Shown piece by piece: positions 53,896-63,321 of a DNA stretch of 64,000 nt. The notes under the pieces were generated by a model. That model ran no database searches. It worked only from the letters and a program-made list of their open reading frames with translations, and was not told the origin of the DNA. The position numbers and the translations under genes are program-made. How positions within the stretch are numbered: the first letter of the stretch is position 1; every line of letters begins with the position of its first letter. The stretch comes from Croceicoccus sp. (GTDB taxonomy: Bacteria > Pseudomonadota > Alphaproteobacteria > Sphingomonadales > Sphingomonadaceae), in the NCBI GenBank assembly GCA_002694745.1, contig NZMY01000014.1, positions 62,001 through 126,000 on the forward strand, read 5' to 3'.

Positions 53896-55740
53896 ATGTA
53901 TCGTCTGCTTCCCGTCCTCCTTCTCGCCGGCTGCGCCGCACAGACGGAGGGCGTGCCCGCGGCTCCACCGGTGCAGGGCGCGCCATCGCAGACGGGGGGC
54001 ACCGCGCAATCGACTGCGCAGCAGGATGCGCGCCTGCTGAATTTCCTCGACGCGGCCTTCGATGCGCAGGTGGCGCTCAGCCCGGAATCGCTGACCAGCC
54101 TGGGGTCGAAGCAGGATTACGGGAAGCTCGACGATTACACGCTGGAGGCGGAGGCGCGCTCGCTCGCGCTGGCCGAGCGGCAGCTGGCCGAGATGCGCGC
54201 GCAGTTCGATCCCGCGACCCTGGGGCCTTCGGCGCGGCTCAGCTATGAACTCTTCGAACGGCAGGTGGAGCGCGAGCGCGAGGGCGCGCGGTTCAGCGCC
54301 TATGCGTTCCCGGTGTCGACCAATGGCACCCCGGCGGGCGAGATACCCGTGTTCCTCATCAACCAGCACAAGATCGACAGCAGCGCCGATGCCGAGGCCT
54401 ATATCGCCCGGCTGCGCGACAGCCAGCGCGTGATGAACGAGACGGTGGCGGTGATGCGGCAGCAGGCCGCGATGGGCATCGTGCCGCCCGAAATGGTCTT
54501 TGAACCCGCGACCGCCGATGCGCGCAGCATCCTGCAAGGCGCGCCTTTCACCGCGGGCGAGGACAATCCGCTGTGGGCCGATTTTCAGGAAAAGGTGAAC
54601 GCGCTGGCGATTGCCGACGCGGAAAAGACCCGGCTGCTGAACGAGGGGCGCGCCGCGCTGGTCGGGCCGTTCCGCAGCGGGGTGGACACGCTGATCGCTG
54701 GCATCGCGGCGGTCCAGCCGCAGGCCAGGGGCAATGACGGGGCGTGGAGCCTGCCCGACGGCGATGCGTATTACGCCAACCGGCTGGCAGACTGGACCAC
54801 CACCGACCTTACCGCCGACCAGATCCACGCCATCGGGCTGGAGCAGGTCGCGGCGATCCGCGCGGAGATGGAGGCGGTGAAGCGGGAGATCGGCTTTACC
54901 GGCACGCTGGAGGAATTCTTCACCGCGCTGCGCAGCGATCCGGCCTATAAATATCCCGACACCGCCGAGGGGCGCGAGAATTATCTTGAGGAAGCGCGCA
55001 CGCTGATCGCGAACGTGATGGCCAAGGCCCCGCAATATTTCGAGCGCCTGCCCAAGGCCGCGCTGGAAGTGCGCGCGGTCGAGCCGTTCCGCGAGGATAC
55101 GGCGTCGGTCGCCTTCTACAACCGGCCTGCGCCCGATGGATCGCGGCCCGGCATCTTCTATGTCAATCTGGCCGACATGAACCAGGTCAACCGCGTGCAG
55201 ACCGACGCCATCGCCGCGCATGAAGGCGCGCCCGGCCACCATTTCCAGATCGCCCGCGCGCAGGAACTGGAAGGCCTGCCCAAGTTCCGCCGCTTTGGCG
55301 GGTACGGCGCCTATTCCGAGGGGTGGGGCCTGTATTCCGAACGGCTGGCGGACGAGATGGGCGTCTATACCACGCCCGAGCAGCGTTTCGGCATGCTGTC
55401 GCTGCAGATATGGCGGGCGATCCGCCTCGTGCTCGACACCGGCATTCATTCCAAGCGCTGGTCGCGTGAGCGGGCCATCGACTATTTCCGCGCGAACTCG
55501 CCCAATTCGGAGCGGGACATCAGGAAGGAAGTCGACCGCTACATCAACAATCCGGGGCAGGCGACCAGCTATATGATCGGCCAGCTGAAGATCGCGGAAC
55601 TGCGCGCACGGGCCGAGCGCGAGCTGGGGCCGGATTTCGACATCCGCGCCTTTCACGAGGCGGTGCTGGGGCAGGGCGCGCTGCCGCTGGACGCATTGGA
55701 GCGGCAGGTCGATGCCTATATCGCCCGGGCCAGGGGTTGA
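53896..55740 (+). CDS. DUF885 family lipoprotein, probable zinc metallopeptidase
   Basis: 614 residues with a lipoprotein signal (MYRLLPVLLLAGC). DUF885 proteins are helical M3/M32-like peptidases; the zinc motif is AAHEGAPGHHFQ (about residues 442-451, an HExxx-HH variant), followed by the second ligand region YGAYSEGWGLYSERLADEMG. Probably periplasmic, acting on peptides of unknown sequence. It lies downstream of the GH3 gene but about 120 bases away, so it may have its own promoter. Confidence 0.87.
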   Translation: MYRLLPVLLLAGCAAQTEGVPAAPPVQGAPSQTGGTAQSTAQQDARLLNFLDAAFDAQVALSPESLTSLGSKQDYGKLDDYTLEAEARSLALAERQLAEMRAQFDPATLGPSARLSYELFERQVEREREGARFSAYAFPVSTNGTPAGEIPVFLINQHKIDSSADAEAYIARLRDSQRVMNETVAVMRQQAAMGIVPPEMVFEPATADARSILQGAPFTAGEDNPLWADFQEKVNALAIADAEKTRLLNEGRAALVGPFRSGVDTLIAGIAAVQPQARGNDGAWSLPDGDAYYANRLADWTTTDLTADQIHAIGLEQVAAIRAEMEAVKREIGFTGTLEEFFTALRSDPAYKYPDTAEGRENYLEEARTLIANVMAKAPQYFERLPKAALEVRAVEPFREDTASVAFYNRPAPDGSRPGIFYVNLADMNQVNRVQTDAIAAHEGAPGHHFQIARAQELEGLPKFRRFGGYGAYSEGWGLYSERLADEMGVYTTPEQRFGMLSLQIWRAIRLVLDTGIHSKRWSRERAIDYFRANSPNSERDIRKEVDRYINNPGQATSYMIGQLKIAELRARAERELGPDFDIRAFHEAVLGQGALPLDALERQVDAYIARARG

Positions 55741-56151: not shown

Positions 56152-57441
56152 TCAGAACGCGAATGGTACGCGCAGCGTGGTGCGAAGGTCGGGCGCGTCT
56201 TCGGTCGCGCCGACTTCCACGGCCCAGTTGACGCTGATCCGGTCGGTCGCGCGATAGGTGATGCCGAACAGCAGCCGCCCCAGCTGAAGATCGCGCGACA
56301 CGGTGTCGCGCACGTCGGGCCAGCTGGGCGTGGGGTCGAGCAGGCTGGTGGTCGTCCTTGTGCCAAAGGCCCATGTGTGGGCGTAGCCCAGGTTCACGCT
56401 GGTGCGCTGGTTGAACGAGATGCCGATGCCCGCCGATGCCGCGATGGAATCGCCCGGATCGACATAGGAAATCCGCACCGGCGGGATCACTGTGTCCACC
56501 GACCGTCCGAAGTTGAAATTATAGCCGAGCGTGCCGAACAGCACGACCGGATCGCTGGGCAGGATCGCGGTCACGCTGGGCGACAGCGCGAAGAAGCCCG
56601 CGCCCGTCGCGGCCTTGAGCGCGCGGCCCAGATCGTCGCGCGGAACGTCGAAAGGATCGGATCCGGTTGGGATCACGCCCTGCAGGTTCGCCAGCACATA
56701 AGGCGCCCCGTCGCGCCCGTCGATGATCTGGTAGCGCGCCGTGAGTTCGAGATCGCCGATGCCGTTACCCTTGACCGAATTGTTGATGGTCGCCGCCTCG
56801 TCATTGTTGGTGCTGCCCGCGATGGGCGCCACGATCGAGGTGTCGCTGCGATAGATGAACGGCAGGCGCGCGCCGATCTCGATACGGTCCGCAAGGCCAT
56901 AGCGCAGGCCGAGGCTGCCGGTCAGTATGTCCTGACGGCTCTCGTTGATGTCGAACACGCCGATCAGCACCGCCTCGACCAGTTCGACGCCGCGGAACAC
57001 CGCGCGGTTGCGGTCGGCGCGGGCGTAATCGAACTGCGCTTCGGCGATCAGCCGCCCGGTGGGGGTGACCACGCTGCTCTGGTTGTCGAGCACCGCGATC
57101 TCGATCGGGCGGTCGTCATCCTCGGGCGCGACGCCGACGCGTTGCAGGGGGACGGTTTCGTTGGGGGCGGACGCGGCCACCGCGGTTTCGGCGGGCGATG
57201 ACGGGACGGCTGATGGGGCGGCGGGGGAAGCGGCGGCGACGGCGGGCGCGGCGCTGTCGAGGCGGCGGCGCAGTTCTGCGATCTCCTCGCGTTGGCGGTC
57301 GAGTTGTTCCTGTTGTTGGCGGATCATCTCCATCGCCCGGTCGAGCTCCGCGCGAATGTCCTCGCCGGGTTGCTGCGCGTGGGCGGCGGTGCCGAGCATG
57401 GTGCTTGCCATTATTGCCGCGATATTCGCCTTTGCCGACAT
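56152..57441 (-). CDS. Outer-membrane beta-barrel with N-terminal coiled coil, FapF-like
   Basis: 429 residues. Signal peptide (ANIAAIMASTMLGTAAHA), then a predicted coiled coil at about 28-65 (LDRAMEMIRQQQEQLDRQREE onward), an Ala/Pro/Ser linker of about 35 residues, and a barrel from about 105 to the terminal Phe (...TLRVPFAF, a typical outer-membrane protein end). FapF of Pseudomonas, the trimeric channel that secretes Fap amyloid, has exactly this order: coiled coil, linker/plug, barrel. Other transporter-type barrels could look similar, but the neighbouring C39 lipoprotein and repeat proteins support FapF. Last gene of the operon, 34 bases after the preceding one. Confidence 0.68.
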   Translation of the reverse strand: MSAKANIAAIMASTMLGTAAHAQQPGEDIRAELDRAMEMIRQQQEQLDRQREEIAELRRRLDSAAPAVAAASPAAPSAVPSSPAETAVAASAPNETVPLQRVGVAPEDDDRPIEIAVLDNQSSVVTPTGRLIAEAQFDYARADRNRAVFRGVELVEAVLIGVFDINESRQDILTGSLGLRYGLADRIEIGARLPFIYRSDTSIVAPIAGSTNNDEAATINNSVKGNGIGDLELTARYQIIDGRDGAPYVLANLQGVIPTGSDPFDVPRDDLGRALKAATGAGFFALSPSVTAILPSDPVVLFGTLGYNFNFGRSVDTVIPPVRISYVDPGDSIAASAGIGISFNQRTSVNLGYAHTWAFGTRTTTSLLDPTPSWPDVRDTVSRDLQLGRLLFGITYRATDRISVNWAVEVGATEDAPDLRTTLRVPFAF

Positions 57442-57475
57442 GTCCCCCCCTTTTGCATCCGGACGCTCCGTCCGA

Positions 57476-58207
57476 TCAAATCCGCGAACGCATGATCCCC
57501 AGTGAAACATCCTCGACCCGCAGCATCGCCGATCCCAGCACGTCGGGGCCGACATTGCCCAGTTCGATGGACAGGGTGGTGCGCGTGTCGATGGCGCGCT
57601 CGCTGCCGGTGTTGAGAATGGCCGATCCCAGCGCGCTGCCGGTCAGATGCATGATGCGGATGTCGGCGCCCTGCAGTTCGACGCCGCCCACGCGCTCGCC
57701 TACGATGCTGTGGATCACGCCATTGGGGGTGGCGACCGCCTCGGTCAGGTCGACGGGGTGCAGGCCGGCAATCGCGGCGGGCGTCTGGCCGTTGGCCGCA
57801 GCCGGTTCGATTTGTGGCGCTGGCCGCTGGACGGTGATGCTGAACCCGTTTTGCCGGTCATAGGACAGGCTGGGCCCGGAATATGGAGTAGCCTGGGGCC
57901 CGGCGGAGGTGCCGGTCTGCGCGGGCAGGGCCACGGTTTCGCCGTCGGCGGGAGCATAGGCCGCCACGACCGGCGCGCCCTCGGCGATGCGCGTCACGGT
58001 TTGCAGCACCACGCTGCCGTCCAGCGCGGTGACCGTGTCGATGCTGAGTGAGACGTCGATCCCGCCGGGCAGGCGAATGCCGCCGCGCTGCTGCGCCAGC
58101 ACATCGTCGGGCACGGCGCTTGCCGCCGCGAACGGCCCCGCGCCGGTTTCGGCTGCTGCGCCCTGCACCGCGACCGCCTGCAGCATCATGGCCGCTTCCT
58201 CGATCAT
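57476..58207 (-). CDS. Unrecognised protein in the FapE position
   Basis: 243 residues, no clear signal peptide (starts MIEEAAMMLQAVAVQGAAAE). It is rich in Ala, Gly, Val and Thr with several predicted strands; the C-terminal part (DIRIMHLTGSALGSAILNTG, TTLSIELGNVGPDVLGSAMLR) looks repetitive, as two similar GSA(I/M)L blocks. In Pseudomonas fap operons the gene between fapD and fapF is fapE, a minor secreted component; I see no certain sequence match, only position. It overlaps the C39 gene by ATGA. Confidence 0.5.
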   Translation of the reverse strand: MIEEAAMMLQAVAVQGAAAETGAGPFAAASAVPDDVLAQQRGGIRLPGGIDVSLSIDTVTALDGSVVLQTVTRIAEGAPVVAAYAPADGETVALPAQTGTSAGPQATPYSGPSLSYDRQNGFSITVQRPAPQIEPAAANGQTPAAIAGLHPVDLTEAVATPNGVIHSIVGERVGGVELQGADIRIMHLTGSALGSAILNTGSERAIDTRTTLSIELGNVGPDVLGSAMLRVEDVSLGIMRSRI

Positions 58208-58908
58208 GAGATGTCCCGGTAGAACGGCGCGGCCAGCATCAGCGCCTGGTGGCTGACCGGCTCTGCCATGGGGCTTCCGATGGGGGCGCGGGCATAGCTG
58301 GCCCATTGCGCATCGGAACTGAAGCTGCGGCGCCCGCGCTCCTGTTCCTCGGTCAGCACGAAATAGATCGAGTTCCACGCCTGCAGGAATTCGTCCCTGG
58401 GCATGACCGTGATGCCCAGCGAGGGATCGCCTAGCAGAACCTCGTCCCCGCGAACGCCCTTTACGACCACGAAATGCCGGTATTGTTTGACTGCGATCAG
58501 CGCGATGCCGGGCACTCCGCTGGCCGCGATCTGGTCGAGGTCGACCTGATATCCATCCGCCGCCAGCCCGCGGCTGGCCAGCCACGATTTCATGTCGAGC
58601 AGCGAGAAGCCGAGCGCGCGGATCTGGTCCCTGTCGCCATGCGCCCACATGCCGCGAAAAGTGGTCTTCTCGTCCACGTCATAATCGTAGTGATAGCGCA
58701 GCAGGGTGGCGAGCGCGGCCGAGCCGCAGCTGAAATCATATTGCTGGGCAATGACGCCGGAAAAGCGGGTTTCCTGAAGCGATCGCACCGGAACGGCGAT
58801 GTCGCCCGCGCCCGACATGCCCATGGCGAAACGCTTCGGGCCGCCGTCGACCTGCCCCGCGCATCCTGTCAGCGCAAGGGCGAGAGCGGTGACGAACAGG
58901 CGGATCAC
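58204..58908 (-). CDS. C39-family cysteine peptidase lipoprotein, FapD-like
   Basis: 234 residues, GTG start at 58908 overlapping the upstream stop (GTGA). A lipoprotein signal (ALALALTGC, Cys16) precedes a C39 peptidase domain with a full triad: Cys61 in QQYDFSCGSAALATLL, His145 in KQYRHFVVVKG and Asp161 in LLGDPSLG. C39 domains process leader peptides, usually after Gly-Gly. FapD of the Fap amyloid system is a C39-type protein, and the DFSCGSAALATLL block is close to what I remember of FapD. A stand-alone lipid-anchored C39 would process subunits in the periplasm. Confidence 0.75.
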   Translation of the reverse strand: MIRLFVTALALALTGCAGQVDGGPKRFAMGMSGAGDIAVPVRSLQETRFSGVIAQQYDFSCGSAALATLLRYHYDYDVDEKTTFRGMWAHGDRDQIRALGFSLLDMKSWLASRGLAADGYQVDLDQIAASGVPGIALIAVKQYRHFVVVKGVRGDEVLLGDPSLGITVMPRDEFLQAWNSIYFVLTEEQERGRRSFSSDAQWASYARAPIGSPMAEPVSHQALMLAAPFYRDIS

Positions 58909-59318
58909 TGGCCCGGACTGATCGAGATATTGACGTTCATCGCCGCGTTGATCGCGACATTATTGCCGGTATTGACGTTCAGGATCGACAGGCCCGACAT
59001 GTTCTGGAACGCATTGCCGTCGATCTCGGCAGCCCCGGTCACCGCGTGGTCGCCGACGCTGTTGTTCGCGACCCCGGCCTTCAGATCGGCCTGCGAATAT
59101 TGCCGCGTATCCTCGCGCCCGGCGATGGATTGCAAGGTGTCGTCGGACACGGCGGCGCTGGCGAACGGGGCGCTGGTAAGTTCCTTGGGCTGGGCCTGTG
59201 CACTGGATGCGTGGGGTTCAGAATCGGGTCGGGCCGCCGCATCCTGCGCCAGCGCGGGCGGGGCGGACAGCGCGAGGGCCGCGGCTGCCGCAAGGCCGAT
59301 CGACAATCTGCTTTTCAT
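58905..59318 (-). CDS. Small secreted protein, candidate minor fibre subunit (FapB/FapA-like position)
   Basis: 137 residues with a clean signal peptide (RLSIGLAAAAALALSAPPALA). The mature N-terminus is Ala/Ser/Pro-rich; the C-terminus (about residues 100-134) has AFQNMSGLSILNVNTG followed by NAAMNVNISIS. The same pattern, AFQN..G...LN.NTG......NA.V.V, ends the repeat protein encoded just upstream, so the two share a domain. In Fap systems such shared motifs belong to the amyloid subunits. It lies 64 bases after the repeat gene and is coupled by GTGA to the C39 gene. Confidence 0.6.
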   Translation of the reverse strand: MKSRLSIGLAAAAALALSAPPALAQDAAARPDSEPHASSAQAQPKELTSAPFASAAVSDDTLQSIAGREDTRQYSQADLKAGVANNSVGDHAVTGAAEIDGNAFQNMSGLSILNVNTGNNVAINAAMNVNISISPGQ

Positions 59319-59382
59319 GTCTCTCTCCCCGGTCATGGCCGGCCCCTGCCGCAGGGCATGGGGCCGGCCATTGCCGATTGCT

Positions 59383-60408
59383 TCAGAAGCTGACGTCGCG
59401 GGTGGACACGGCCACCGAGACATTCGCGTTCTGTACGGATCCGACGCCCGTGTTCTGGTTCAGCGCCTGCATTCCGGCGAAATTCTGGAATGCACTGCCG
59501 CTGGTCGTCAGGCTGTTGTCCGCGGTGGCCATTTCGCCATCGGGGGCGCCCGATCCATAGGTGACGCCGACCCCGCTGACATAGCTGGACAGCGAGGCGG
59601 CGGCGACGATCGCGCCGTCGCCAAAGACCGATGCGCTGTCCGAGGCGTCGATCGAATGATCATTGCCCGAATCGCGCACCGTCATGGCCCAGTTGCTGAC
59701 CGAGTTATCGGAGTTGTCGTTCATGCTGTCGTTGGTGGAGTTGTCGGAATTGTCGTTCATGCTGTCGCTGGTCGACTTGTCGTTGCCGACATCCCGCTGC
59801 TCGGTGACATAGCTGGCGTTTTGCCGGTTGTCGGAATTGTTCGAGCTGTCGTTCACGGTGCTACCGTTATTGGCCGCGAACCGCCCGCCCGATGCCGAGC
59901 TGTTGGCCGAATTGTCGCTGTTATCGCTGTTGTCGCTGTTGTTGCTGTTGTCGCTGTTGTTGCTATTGTCGTTGTTGCTGTTGTTGGTCGACTTGTCGTT
60001 CATCGCATCGGCGACTTCATAGGTGGAATTGTCCGAATTGTCGGTCATCGAGTTATCGGAGTTATCCGTCATCGAGTTGTCCGAATAATCGGCCATCGAA
60101 TTGTCGGAATTGTCCGTCATCGAGTTATCCGAATTGTCGGTCATCGAATTGTCGGAGGCATCGACCCGCGAATAGTCGTTCCCCGAATCCCTCGTAGTGA
60201 TCGAGTTGTCGGACGAATCGTTGTTCATGTTGTTGTTGTCGCTGGTGGCGGTGGAGCCTCCGTTGGCGCCGGTCTGGCCGCCGCTGGCCGCGCTATTGAC
60301 GGAATTGTCCGAATAGTTGCGGTCGTTGTTGGTGTTGTCCTGCGCAAATGCCGGTGCGGCGATCAGCAGGGCTGCGAGAGAGCAGCCTTGAAAAAAAGCG
60401 GTCTTCAT
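59383..60408 (-). CDS. Secreted Ser-Asp-Asn repeat protein, candidate major fibre subunit (FapC-like position)
   Basis: 341 residues with a signal peptide (KTAFFQGCSLAALLIAAPAFA). The middle is almost entirely Ser, Asp and Asn: 5.5 copies of an 8-residue repeat SDNSMTDN (residues 85-128), an Asn/Ser/Asp run (140-170) and two copies of a 12-residue unit SMNDNSDNSTND (216-239). RD(S/V)GND recurs at about 73, 205 and 245, and ASGG blocks at about 41 and 172. The C-terminus has the AFQN..G...LNQNTG motif shared with the next gene. FapC, the Pseudomonas amyloid, is repeat-rich and signal-bearing, but its repeats are unlike these. Composition also fits a calcium-binding or matrix protein. Confidence 0.6.
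   Translation of the reverse strand: MKTAFFQGCSLAALLIAAPAFAQDNTNNDRNYSDNSVNSAASGGQTGANGGSTATSDNNNMNNDSSDNSITTRDSGNDYSRVDASDNSMTDNSDNSMTDNSDNSMADYSDNSMTDNSDNSMTDNSDNSTYEVADAMNDKSTNNSNNDNSNNSDNSNNSDNSDNSDNSANSSASGGRFAANNGSTVNDSSNNSDNRQNASYVTEQRDVGNDKSTSDSMNDNSDNSTNDSMNDNSDNSVSNWAMTVRDSGNDHSIDASDSASVFGDGAIVAAASLSSYVSGVGVTYGSGAPDGEMATADNSLTTSGSAFQNFAGMQALNQNTGVGSVQNANVSVAVSTRDVSF
59692..59763 (-). repeat. Two 36-base coding repeats (SMNDNSDNS units)
   Basis: Residues 216-227 and 228-239 of the repeat protein are near-identical 12-residue units (SMNDNSDNSTND, SMNDNSDNSVSN). Confidence 0.75.
60025..60156 (-). repeat. 24-base coding tandem repeats (8-residue SDNSMTDN units)
   Basis: Five full copies and a half copy encode residues 85-128 of the repeat protein; one copy reads SDNSMADY. 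Copies differ at silent positions (TTATCC/TTGTCG variants), which implies selection for the protein repeat rather than recent slippage alone. Confidence 0.8.
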
Positions 60409-60569: not shown

Positions 60570-60586
60570 ATGTATGTTACTTACAT
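60570..60586. repeat. Inverted repeat at the luxR-type stop, upstream of the Fap-like operon
   Basis: ATGTATGTTACTTACAT has 5-base arms (ATGTA/TACAT) around seven bases, in an AT-rich patch about 165 bases before the repeat-protein start. It is a candidate operator for the adjacent LuxR-type regulator. Confidence 0.35.
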
Positions 60587-61699
60587 GACGGCATGTGCCA
60601 TATTTGGCTGAAACAGCCTTGGTGCGCCTTTTAACAATAATGTTATCAGCTCTGTCTGGCGGCTTGTCTCGGTTTTGGCGAAGACCTGCTTGAGATAGGA
60701 CCGGGCCGTCTGCTCCTGAATGCCCAGCCGTTCGGCTGCTTCCGCAAGCAGGTCTCCCGCCACCAGTGCGCAGGTCAGCTGGGTTTCGCGGTGCGACAGG
60801 CCGTGCAGGCGGCACACCGGCTCTATCATGGCGTTGAGGTTTTCCTCAGGATCGACCGCATGGGCGGTGATGACGGGTTCAGCCGTGCCGTTGCCTGCGG
60901 TCATCGGACCGGACAGCGCAATGCTCAGCGGGCGGCGGCGCCCCCTGCGAACGGCGAGAACGGGATTGAGGTCGACCTTGGCGCACGGACCCGCGCACAG
61001 ATGTTCGATTGCGGCGTGCAGGCGCACGGTATCGGTCAGCGAAGCGCACACCAGTTGCTCGCCGCTGCGGCGCAAGCCGTCGCCTTGCGTGAAAATGGCC
61101 TCGGCAGCCGCATTTGCGTAGGCGATATGCGAATGGCAATCGAGAACGATCGTGGCCATGCCGCTTCCCTCGATCGCGCCATGCAGGCTGCGCACCGTTT
61201 GCTGGAGCCGCCGATTGGCGAGCATTTGCCGGAAGTGAGAGATAACGAAGGGGCGCAGCGTCTCGAGCGCGGCGGCCAGACCCTCACTCGCATCCCCGTT
61301 CGTCATCGGGGTGCCCGCGAGTGTCAGCGTGCCGTCGTCCAGCGGTATGGCGGCGACGAACATGCTGCTGCGCCATGAGACGCGGAACGAACCGGGTTCA
61401 AGCGGATCGTCACCCAGTTCCGCCAGAGTCATGATTGTCTGCATGCGGTGCCACTCGAAAGAGAAGCGATGGCCGGGATCGTCGCTGGCCAGCAAGACAC
61501 TTTCGGCATGGGCGCCGTGCCAGATGGCGTAGAGTTCGGCACAGGCGCAAAAGCGGCGCAGAGCCGCGATCATCTCGTCGCCGTGCCCCGCATGATCGGG
61601 CAGATCTGGCCATGCCTCCGCCTCCGCCGGCGCCGCGGCGTTGAGGTGGCGGGATTGCATGTCCCGCCGCATATCGGAAACTATCGAATCATATGCCAC
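60581..61699 (-). CDS. LuxR-family regulator with PAS-like sensor region
   Basis: 372 residues from GTG 61699 (GGGGGA upstream). The C-terminal HTH_LuxR spans about 305-360 (LSHRETQLTCALVAGDLLAEAAERLGIQEQTARSYLKQVFAKTE). Before it lies a PAS-like segment (MATIVLDCHSHIAYANAAAEAIFTQGDGL). No receiver domain or autoinducer-binding signature is visible. Same strand as, and 172 bases upstream of, the Fap-like operon, so it is its most likely regulator; control is inferred from position only. An inverted repeat overlaps its stop codon. Confidence 0.87.
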   Translation of the reverse strand: MAYDSIVSDMRRDMQSRHLNAAAPAEAEAWPDLPDHAGHGDEMIAALRRFCACAELYAIWHGAHAESVLLASDDPGHRFSFEWHRMQTIMTLAELGDDPLEPGSFRVSWRSSMFVAAIPLDDGTLTLAGTPMTNGDASEGLAAALETLRPFVISHFRQMLANRRLQQTVRSLHGAIEGSGMATIVLDCHSHIAYANAAAEAIFTQGDGLRRSGEQLVCASLTDTVRLHAAIEHLCAGPCAKVDLNPVLAVRRGRRRPLSIALSGPMTAGNGTAEPVITAHAVDPEENLNAMIEPVCRLHGLSHRETQLTCALVAGDLLAEAAERLGIQEQTARSYLKQVFAKTETSRQTELITLLLKGAPRLFQPNMAHAVM

Positions 61700-62187: not shown

Positions 62188-63321
62188 GTGCAGCGAAACA
62201 AGCTTTGCCTGAATGCGGTCGCGGCGGCGATGCTGGCTGCGCTTGCCGCACCCGCTGCCGCCGATCCCGGCGGTGCCGCGCCGCCACTGGAAGACGCATC
62301 TGCCCGCACTGCCGAGGTGATGCGGGCCGCGGGGCTTCCCGGCGAACTGGTCGTCACCGATGTCGCGGGGGCGGAGCGGTCGTTTGCATTCGGGCTGGCC
62401 GACCGCGAAGCAGGGACCCCGAACAGGATCGGGCAGCCATGGATCTGGGCATCGGTCACCAAGCAGGTCACCGCCACGCTGGTGATGCAGGAGGTCGATC
62501 GCGGCCGGATTTCCCTCGACGCCCCCGTCGGGAAATATCTTCCGGCGTTCGGGGGCAATCGGGAAATCACCATACGCGAATTGCTGCAGCACCGCTCCGG
62601 CCTTCCCAATCCCTCCGCCGACGCGGCATCGGGGTTCTACACGCAATCCGGCGAACACATCACGGACCGGGGCCGCACCGCAGGTTTTTGCGCGGGCCCG
62701 ACGGCCAAGGCAAACGGCGGTGACTGGGAATACAACAATTGCGATTACATGGTGCTGGGCGCCGTCCTCGAAGCCGTGACGGGTCTGGGCTATGACGCGC
62801 TTGTGGAGGAGCGCCTCGTTCGGCCGCTGGGGCTGGACGGGCCGCATCTGGCCGTCGACGGGGCCGCCTGGGGCGGCGCTGCGGCAAGGGGGTATGGCGC
62901 GTCCGGGCGGGTGGCCGAGATCAATGTCGCGACCGGCGGCGCTGCCGCGGCGCTGCTCGGCACCGCGCGCGATCTCGCTCGTCTCGACCGCGCATGGATG
63001 GGGGGCGGCCTGCTGTCGGCTGAGGCCCGCGACATGGCGTGGAAGGGCGATCCCGCGCTCGGCTTTATGGCGCTTGGCGTGTGGTCTTATCCGGCGGGAC
63101 TGAACGGATGCGCCGCGCCCGTGCATCTGGTCGAACGGCGCGGTGATTTTGGCGGGACCCAGGTTCGCAACGTGATCGCGCCATCGCTGGGCCGGGCCGT
63201 GGTGCTGTTCACCAACGATGCCTCGGCAGAATTCGGCGAGGTGTGGCAGGCCAAGGGCCTGACCTATGATCTGCTGTCGGCGGCCTTTTGCCCAGACCCT
63301 GCGAACTTGCGCGAAGACTGA
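62188..63321 (+). CDS. Serine hydrolase, class C beta-lactamase-like, exported
   Basis: 377 residues from GTG 62188, with a signal peptide (NKLCLNAVAAAMLAALAAPAAA). The nucleophile is Ser89 in WASVTKQV (S-x-x-K) and Y-x-N appears as WEYNNCDYMVLG. The third motif is the RRGDFGGTQVRN region. Four cysteines (GFCAG, NNCDY, NGCAA, AFCPD) could form two disulfides in the periplasm. Short form without an extra domain. It is the fourth SxxK hydrolase in this window; its substrate is unknown. Confidence 0.83.
   Translation: MQRNKLCLNAVAAAMLAALAAPAAADPGGAAPPLEDASARTAEVMRAAGLPGELVVTDVAGAERSFAFGLADREAGTPNRIGQPWIWASVTKQVTATLVMQEVDRGRISLDAPVGKYLPAFGGNREITIRELLQHRSGLPNPSADAASGFYTQSGEHITDRGRTAGFCAGPTAKANGGDWEYNNCDYMVLGAVLEAVTGLGYDALVEERLVRPLGLDGPHLAVDGAAWGGAAARGYGASGRVAEINVATGGAAAALLGTARDLARLDRAWMGGGLLSAEARDMAWKGDPALGFMALGVWSYPAGLNGCAAPVHLVERRGDFGGTQVRNVIAPSLGRAVVLFTNDASAEFGEVWQAKGLTYDLLSAAFCPDPANLRED

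Follow-up and report, generated by a model that had tools for sequence, protein, structure and literature searches.

Genes at the locus

The 64,000-nucleotide stretch of contig NZMY01000014.1 from Croceicoccus sp. analyzed here (the window, numbered from its first letter) contains five genes on the minus strand between positions 56152 and 60408, which are called R, S, D, E and F in the direction of transcription. R (59383–60408; 341 residues from an ATG) and S (58905–59318; 137 residues) encode a predicted secreted repeat subunit and a predicted small secreted subunit, respectively. They are followed by D (58204–58908; 234 residues, GTG start), encoding a C39 peptidase lipoprotein homologous to FapD, E (57476–58207; 243 residues), encoding a distant homolog of FapE, and F (56152–57441; 429 residues), encoding an outer-membrane transporter homologous to FapF. 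R and S are separated by 64 bases, S and D as well as D and E overlap by 4 bases, and a gap of 34 bases lies between E and F. An earlier note on this DNA had described five same-strand genes in this order, with three of the four junctions being 4-base overlaps or shorter than 40 bases, and had read them as a Fap-like secretion operon, an alphaproteobacterial version of the Pseudomonas fapABCDEF system with a new subunit type. The coordinates of the open reading frames (ORFs) agree with the arrangement, as do the two overlaps and the 34-base gap, and the homology of D, E and F to FapD, FapE and FapF upholds the likeness to Fap. All signal peptides, as well as D's lipobox and the F coiled coil, were assigned by eye.

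Homology of D and F to FapD and FapF

D carries a C39 peptidase domain (PF03412, E-value 2.2e-18), as had been proposed for the lipoprotein, and an LTGC lipobox. Its catalytic residues Q55, C61, H145 and D161 are kept in 93 or 94 of the 94 aligned rows, an alignment that omits one cut row (L085). Comparison with NCBIfam FapD, a check suggested in the earlier note, gives a match with an E-value of 7.6e-45 and 153 bits (equivalog cut-off 330); FilB is matched with 4.4e-31 and 108 bits (cut-off 475).

F consists of a signal peptide, a coiled coil (approximately residues 28–64, DNA approximately 57250–57360, minus strand), a linker and a C-terminal barrel. It matches NCBIfam FapF (7e-37, 127 bits; curated equivalog cut-off 700) and the FapF chains 5o65, 5o67 and 5o68 of the PDB (best 1.2e-26, over residues 107–429), confirming the FapF-like barrel that had been recognized before. 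Further matches are those to FilC (3.4e-14, 53 bits; cut-off 630) and to PF13557 (4.9e-7, above the cut-off). F also has a PTG motif, P258-T259-G260, which is invariant in 14 of the 14 aligned F proteins of the window type.

The position of F relative to canonical FapF was determined from a tree of 99 of the 100 F proteins in the first set of loci, calculated by a quick method without bootstrap; the cut protein of L123 was omitted, and ten rows of a third D–F type were named as outgroup. The 29 Fap rows form one clade and 60 window-type rows another, each with a support of 99 in the Shimodaira–Hasegawa-like approximate likelihood ratio test (SH-aLRT). Eight outgroup rows group at the root and two (L090 and L096) adjoin the window-type clade. 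The F protein of the window belongs to a well-supported sister clade of Fap and lies outside the canonical Fap clade. Window-type rows include genomes from outside the class (L151–L161, L179, and L180), and three genomes (G104, G812, and G530) contain both kinds of F in the tree. A fourth, G860, also has both, its canonical copy being judged by score, outside the tree. In the third type, a C39 peptidase and a FapF-like barrel share a locus (L172–L178, L181, L090, and L096); S and E were undetectable there by profile search. Taken on sequence, the operon of the window almost certainly encodes a Fap-type secretion machine.

Protein E is a distant FapE

The gene between D and F had been left as unknown in the earlier note, and this entry can now be refined. 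In Pfam and NCBIfam scans, the E protein of the window has no meaningful family match by itself. When the 2115 ORFs of 29 Fap-type loci were searched with a profile of 56 E proteins, all of them taken from non-Fap loci, each of the top 20 matches was the FapE-position protein (2.7e-9 for the first, 0.014 for the twentieth), and the first match away from that position had an E-value of 0.018. NCBIfam FapE touches 2 of the 41 E family members that make up alignment A3 (41 of the 56); its best value of 0.0024 is just slightly ahead of those of two unrelated families, 0.0034 and 0.0082. By these profile comparisons, E is a distant FapE homolog located between D and F. It has an N-terminus that is weakly signal-peptide-like by eye, followed by the leader motif described below and then a β-rich domain; its AlphaFold2 model has a predicted local distance difference test score (pLDDT) of 77. 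A poor signal peptide is also seen in the E protein of L122, and several other homologs look normal by eye. The start site or export route assigned to E in the window is tentative.

Subunits R and S and their C-terminal repeat

R is composed of a signal peptide, a long low-complexity region rich in N, D and S, and a conserved C-terminal part of approximately 80 residues. The description of R as repeat-rich holds at the DNA level, with tandem repeats of periods 6 to 72 and scores of 55 to 202. Near its end lies one Fap-like repeat (59404–59502, minus strand; approximately residues 303–335). S comprises a signal peptide, the leader motif, a linker and one degenerate Fap-like repeat at the C-terminus (58917–59027, minus strand; approximately residues 98–134). 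The C-terminal motif common to R and S, noticed at first sight of the sequence, is confirmed by the alignment of the two families (hhalign E-value 3.3e-9), of which the score is reached by 0 of 150 column shuffles.

In all 29 canonical Fap-type loci, ORFs with two or more Fap repeats are present (56 ORFs, 151 repeats). When the family alignments were compared with these 151 canonical FapB/C repeats, the C-termini of R gave an hhalign E-value of 1.9e-5 over 35 columns and those of S 4.6e-4 over 31 columns; none of the 150 column shuffles made for each attained its score. A hidden Markov model (HMM) of the Fap repeat finds S of the window at 6.6 bits (3 of 3000 shuffles), which is suggestive, and raises 14 of 50 S and 3 of 22 R proteins above the 99% shuffle level, the best S scoring 10.2 bits. 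Of 44 S members, NCBIfam FapB matches one at E ≤ 0.01 (2.7e-4), and relaxing the threshold to E ≤ 10 brings the number to three. Neither R nor S contains the approximately three imperfect repeats of FapB/C; each has one degenerate Fap-like repeat, and in this respect the new subunit type claimed for the operon stands.

The number of repeats varies within the window-type clade. The protein at the R position of L165 (8029–14445, minus strand; 2138 residues) has 26 copies of a QQNNG-type repeat, counted by regular expression (regex), approximately 74 residues apart. Its counterpart in L162 (1909–4425, plus strand; 838 residues) has 12 regex matches, two of which overlap, leaving 11 distinct copies. 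Both lie beside window-type S, D and E, and their F proteins belong to the window-type clade. In hhalign comparisons without a shuffle control, these repeats match S at 2e-6, FapB/C at 8.8e-5 and R at 1e-4. The R-position protein of L171 contains three further copies of its own C-terminus (phmmer); no further copies were seen in that of L163.

Profile searches found S in 50 of the 101 loci examined, the window included, and R in 22; alignments A2 and A4 contain 44 of these 50 S and 12 of these 22 R proteins. In the whole genome of the window (4.02 Mb), the S profile matches at E ≤ 1 only S itself, the C-terminus of R (0.0034) and the leader of E (0.0146), and the E profile matches E as well as the C-terminus of S (0.078). 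S thus has a leader in common with E and a tail in common with R. At three other loci (L086, L089, and L091) an R-type protein with acidic DDNSDDDG repeats, which resemble calcium-binding ones, adjoins F; S, D and E were not found in the stretch fetched for these loci.

A leader common to E, FapE and S

After the signal region, E, canonical FapE and S have a common leader, h-x4-L-x2-h-x-G-x, in which h is hydrophobic. In E of the window it reads AVPDDVLAQQRGG (58079–58117, minus strand; residues 31–43), the proposed cleavage site for D. In S it reads AVSDDTLQSIAGR (59115–59153, minus strand; residues 56–68), with hydrophobic residues at -12, -7 and -4. The regex of this leader is found in 51 of 56 E, 27 of 29 FapE and 40 of 50 S proteins, compared to shuffle maxima of 21, 12 and 10. 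It stays at the shuffle mean in D (17 of 95; mean 17.6), F (34 of 100; 30.6) and R (2 of 22; 4.0). With a position-specific matrix from 46 E proteins, most S (36 of 50) and nearly all FapE proteins (28 of 29) exceed the 99% shuffle level, the counts for R, D, F and FapB/C being 3 of 22, 4 of 95, 5 of 100 and 1 of 56. The matrix score of the E leader in the window is reached by 0 of 2000 shuffles, though E proteins had themselves served to train the matrix.

For the comparison of columns, L/M at -7 and G at -2 served to anchor the leaders, and ties were broken by neighboring charges and the residues at -3/-1, so that these columns hold by construction. In this way 50 of 56 E, 29 of 29 FapE and 38 of 50 S leaders were anchored. 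Hydrophobic residues occupy -12 in 96, 97 and 92% of the anchored E, FapE and S leaders and -4 in 54, 93 and 55%; position -1 is G in 96% of E. The recognition code of ComA consists of F(-15), I(-12), L(-7) and I(-4) before a double glycine (PMC10885120). The leaders agree with this code at -12 and -7 and, in FapE, well at -4, where approximately half of the E and S leaders agree too; at -15 they do not. In the structural models, a helix lies on the leader motif of E (model residues 9–16, i.e., E residues 34–41) and, in a model of low confidence, on that of S (residues 59–66).

In Pseudomonas, the C38A mutation of FapD abolished FapC secretion (Rouse 2017, PMC5557850). The same paper called the target of FapD unclear, described the Fap proteins as being without canonical C39 sequences, and saw a sign of processing in the GG and GA motifs that FapE and FapF contain. 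One year later the target was "yet to be determined" (PMC6173800), and according to a 2025 review FapD "is thought to process" FapE and FapF (PMC12822426). Judged from the leaders, D is predicted to cut that of E and that of S, and we regard this as likely.

Conservation and distribution

When genome contigs were searched with F (alignment A1), 66 named loci were obtained, five of them cut at F; the tree does not include these 66. They come mainly from Sphingomonas, Erythrobacter and other Sphingomonadales, with two Halomonas, a Rhodospirillales, a Parvularculaceae and Ferruginivarius among them. In 56 of the 61 uncut loci, R-S-D-E-F are collinear on one strand, which shows that the arrangement is not due to chance. 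In the other five, F is directed toward E-D, and S is present in four. Of the S loci in the first set, 30 extend for 900 bases or more upstream of S, and every one of them carries R or a polar R-like protein, i.e., R by profile in 18 and a polar low-complexity protein within 400 bases upstream in 12, such a composition being found in 97 of 2562 ORFs overall. The remaining 20 of the 50 S loci were too short for this count. No criterion of distance to S was applied to the 18 loci counted by profile; in L119, R lies approximately 1.2 kb upstream.

FapF matches were found in 74 of 396 genomes of the order to which the window belongs, in 42 of 398 genomes of a phylum-wide draw and in 3 of 14 genomes of the genus, including that of the window itself. 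In the order, 19 matches score 321–405 bits and 39 score 115–182 bits, the rest being weaker and mostly partial. The first group corresponds to canonical operons in the loci inspected. Together with nine reference loci from the phylum search and L083, these 19 constitute the 29 Fap-type loci, six of which were also viewed by eye. Loci from the genome searches were picked by their FapF or FapD score, so that the counts made on them are not those of random samples, and a survey of 13 chosen loci considered only proteins that passed a composition or motif filter. Canonical multi-repeat fap operons of Alphaproteobacteria are found at L064–L083, 19 of these 20 being in the window's own family; in L074, the F gene is on the strand opposite to D-E.

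The idea of an alphaproteobacterial version of Fap does not survive this survey. There are 19 operons with multi-repeat FapB/C in the same family, and the operon of the window sits in a sister clade that has members beyond the Alphaproteobacteria. The range of Fap given in the earlier note, mainly beta-, gamma- and deltaproteobacteria, agrees with Dueholm 2013 (PMC3792158), in which Fap was confined to these three classes, but not with Rouse 2018 (PMC6173800), in which 25 genera were added, with Erythrobacter, Porphyrobacter and Novosphingobium named. The latter paper also reported co-located fapD and fapF in five more phyla. As canonical Fap in Sphingomonadales has thus been published, Fap in an alphaproteobacterium is not new. 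No report of the sister clade, of its range of subunits or of a position-specific leader in FapE, E and S was found in the open-access literature searched.

Neighboring genes

Upstream of R lies X (60581–61699, minus strand), a LuxR-type gene and candidate regulator of the operon. Its GerE helix-turn-helix match (PF00196, 3.1e-4, 20.8 bits) is below the cut-off of 23.5, and so is a PAS-like match (PAS_4, 0.034) below that of Pfam. A LuxR homolog is found upstream of R in 44 of the 56 collinear loci, on the same strand in 36 and divergent in 8. The operon is flanked by genes for a DUF885 protein (53896–55740; PF05960, 3.3e-180) and a serine hydrolase of the beta-lactamase family (62188–63321; PF00144, 1.7e-45).

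Relation to known systems

The operon resembles Pseudomonas Fap in that homologs of FapD, FapE and FapF occur in the same order with two putative secreted subunits upstream, in that the C-terminal repeat can be aligned with Fap repeats, and in that FapE has the same leader motif. It differs from Pseudomonas Fap in the placement of its F in the sister clade, in its subunits with one degenerate repeat each versus about three, and in the leader motif, which occurs in window-type S and not in FapB/C. The long polar low-complexity region of R and the LuxR-type gene upstream are further differences. No FapA family turned up in the NCBIfam scan of the six window genes, the presence of such a model in the library being unchecked; fapA is frequently deleted in known fap operons (PMC3792158). 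Canonical Sphingomonadales Fap (L064–L082) comes from the same bacterial family and has homologous D, E and F. It is distinguished by multi-repeat FapB/C and by an F from the other clade, and in genome G104 it exists beside the window type.

A pair of C39 peptidase and outer-membrane protein is also present in the Fil system, a putative pilus of Acinetobacter. However, D and F of the window score lower on FilB and FilC than on FapD and FapF and miss the Fil cut-offs. No other Fil family appeared in the NCBIfam scan of the six genes, for which the library's coverage of Fil models is unchecked. Finally, the double-glycine/C39 systems of ComA and LahT have a C39 domain with conserved Q, C, H and D, and their leaders, like those proposed here, are hydrophobic at -12, -7 and often -4, with G at -2. 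Unlike in these systems, D of the window would be a stand-alone periplasmic lipoprotein protease, of which the substrates have Sec-type signal regions. Moreover, -1 is often K/R and -15 is not conserved in the proposed leaders.

Proposed mechanism and alternatives

We consider it quite probable that the operon encodes a FapD-E-F-type fiber-secretion machine from a clade sister to canonical Fap, working as follows. R, S, E, D and F would cross the inner membrane by Sec, and F would form a coiled-coil-fronted barrel in the outer membrane. D, as a periplasmic lipoprotein C39 protease, would remove the N-terminal leader of E and S at L-x4-G-x, and this removal would license E, S and R for export through F. 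Beyond the outer membrane, the C-terminal Fap-like repeats of S and R might stack into the cross-β (amyloid-like) core of a fiber, with the long N/D/S-rich stretch of R exposed around it as a hydrophilic coat, while E would anchor or initiate the fiber. The homology of D, E and F, the gene order, the leader of E and S and the C-terminal repeat of S and R are direct observations; cleavage, export, fiber, amyloid core and coat are extrapolated from them. Amyloid-like fibers are the likely product.

The machine might instead secrete R and S as a non-amyloid, polar and possibly ion-binding adhesive or surface coat, in which case the repeat would be a signal for secretion or docking. R consists mostly of polar low-complexity sequence with one repeat, and acidic DDDG repeats abound in the R-type proteins of L086, L089 and L091. 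The C-terminal features that S has in common with R and E would likewise be accounted for by a recognition signal. However, in L165 and L162 the C-terminal repeat has expanded to 26 and 11 copies, as a structural repeat would, and it aligns with the amyloid repeats of FapB/C, so that we hold a non-amyloid coat to be possible but doubtful. It is improbable that the operon is a diverged ortholog of the canonical fap operon, with R standing for FapB and S for FapC. The D-E-F order is the same and the NCBIfam FapE and FapB profiles touch some family members, but the F tree splits the two clades with an SH-aLRT support of 99, and multi-repeat FapB/C operons occur within the window's own family, some even in genomes that also have the window type. 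Least probable is an uptake channel of the COG4313/phenol-MetA type or a Fil-type putative pilus in place of a fiber exporter. The matches to PF13557, FilC and FilB given above would agree with such a function, as would the PTG motif, which is also present in COG4313 channels (PMC6173800). Against this, FapF and FapD outscore FilC and FilB, and the linkage to two proteins with signal-like N-termini, to FapE and to a C39 protease is conserved.

Several observations weigh against a fiber-secretion machine with the above mechanism or against its parts. The scores of F and D are far under the curated NCBI cut-offs for FapF and FapD. The FapE proteins of the Pseudomonas group are weakly matched by the E profile (L143 at 2.7e-4, L142 at 0.22, and L144 at 0.39), the model of E has no convincing match in the PDB, and the signal peptide of E in the window is poor by eye. 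The C-termini of E match S but fail to match Fap repeats, the score being attained in 35 of 150 column shuffles. For the subunits, the repeat depends on profile–profile comparisons of 31–35 columns and the model of S is of low confidence (pLDDT 66). The canonical Fap-repeat HMM misses R of the window (1047 of 3000 shuffles) and gives the multi-repeat proteins of L165, L162, and L171 no domain at E ≤ 1; shuffled copies head its list, among the matches listed.

The leader has its own difficulties. The regex was composed after inspection of the sequences, and some of its matches lie off the leader (L156 and L168 for E, L073 for FapE, L092 and L171 for S). The S leader of the window is weak against the E matrix, its score being reached by 61 of 2000 shuffles. 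Position -15 is hydrophobic in just 52, 21 and 13% of E, FapE and S, and every one of the 29 FapE leaders has K/R at -1, as do 45% of those of S, while known C39 substrates have GG, GA or GS. In published mass spectra, FapE is without peptides in approximately its first 70 residues (PMC5557850), a gap that extends past the leader motif, which lies at about residues 32–41 of the L142 ORF.

Significance for the Fap family

According to the 2025 review, Fap is evolutionarily "fixed," with almost invariably three repeats, and the screen described there required homologs of the FapB/C repeats (PMC12822426). As the subunits of the sister clade are mostly within the shuffle range of the repeat HMM built here, a repeat-based screen may well miss this clade. 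On balance, we lean toward a second major Fap-type lineage with one to more than 25 repeats, in which FapD would mature FapE and a subunit through a periplasmic, ComA-like double-glycine code; as canonical FapE has this code as well, it would be the substrate of FapD there. The leader common to E, FapE and S names a candidate site for FapD at residue level, in Pseudomonas Fap and in sphingomonads alike.

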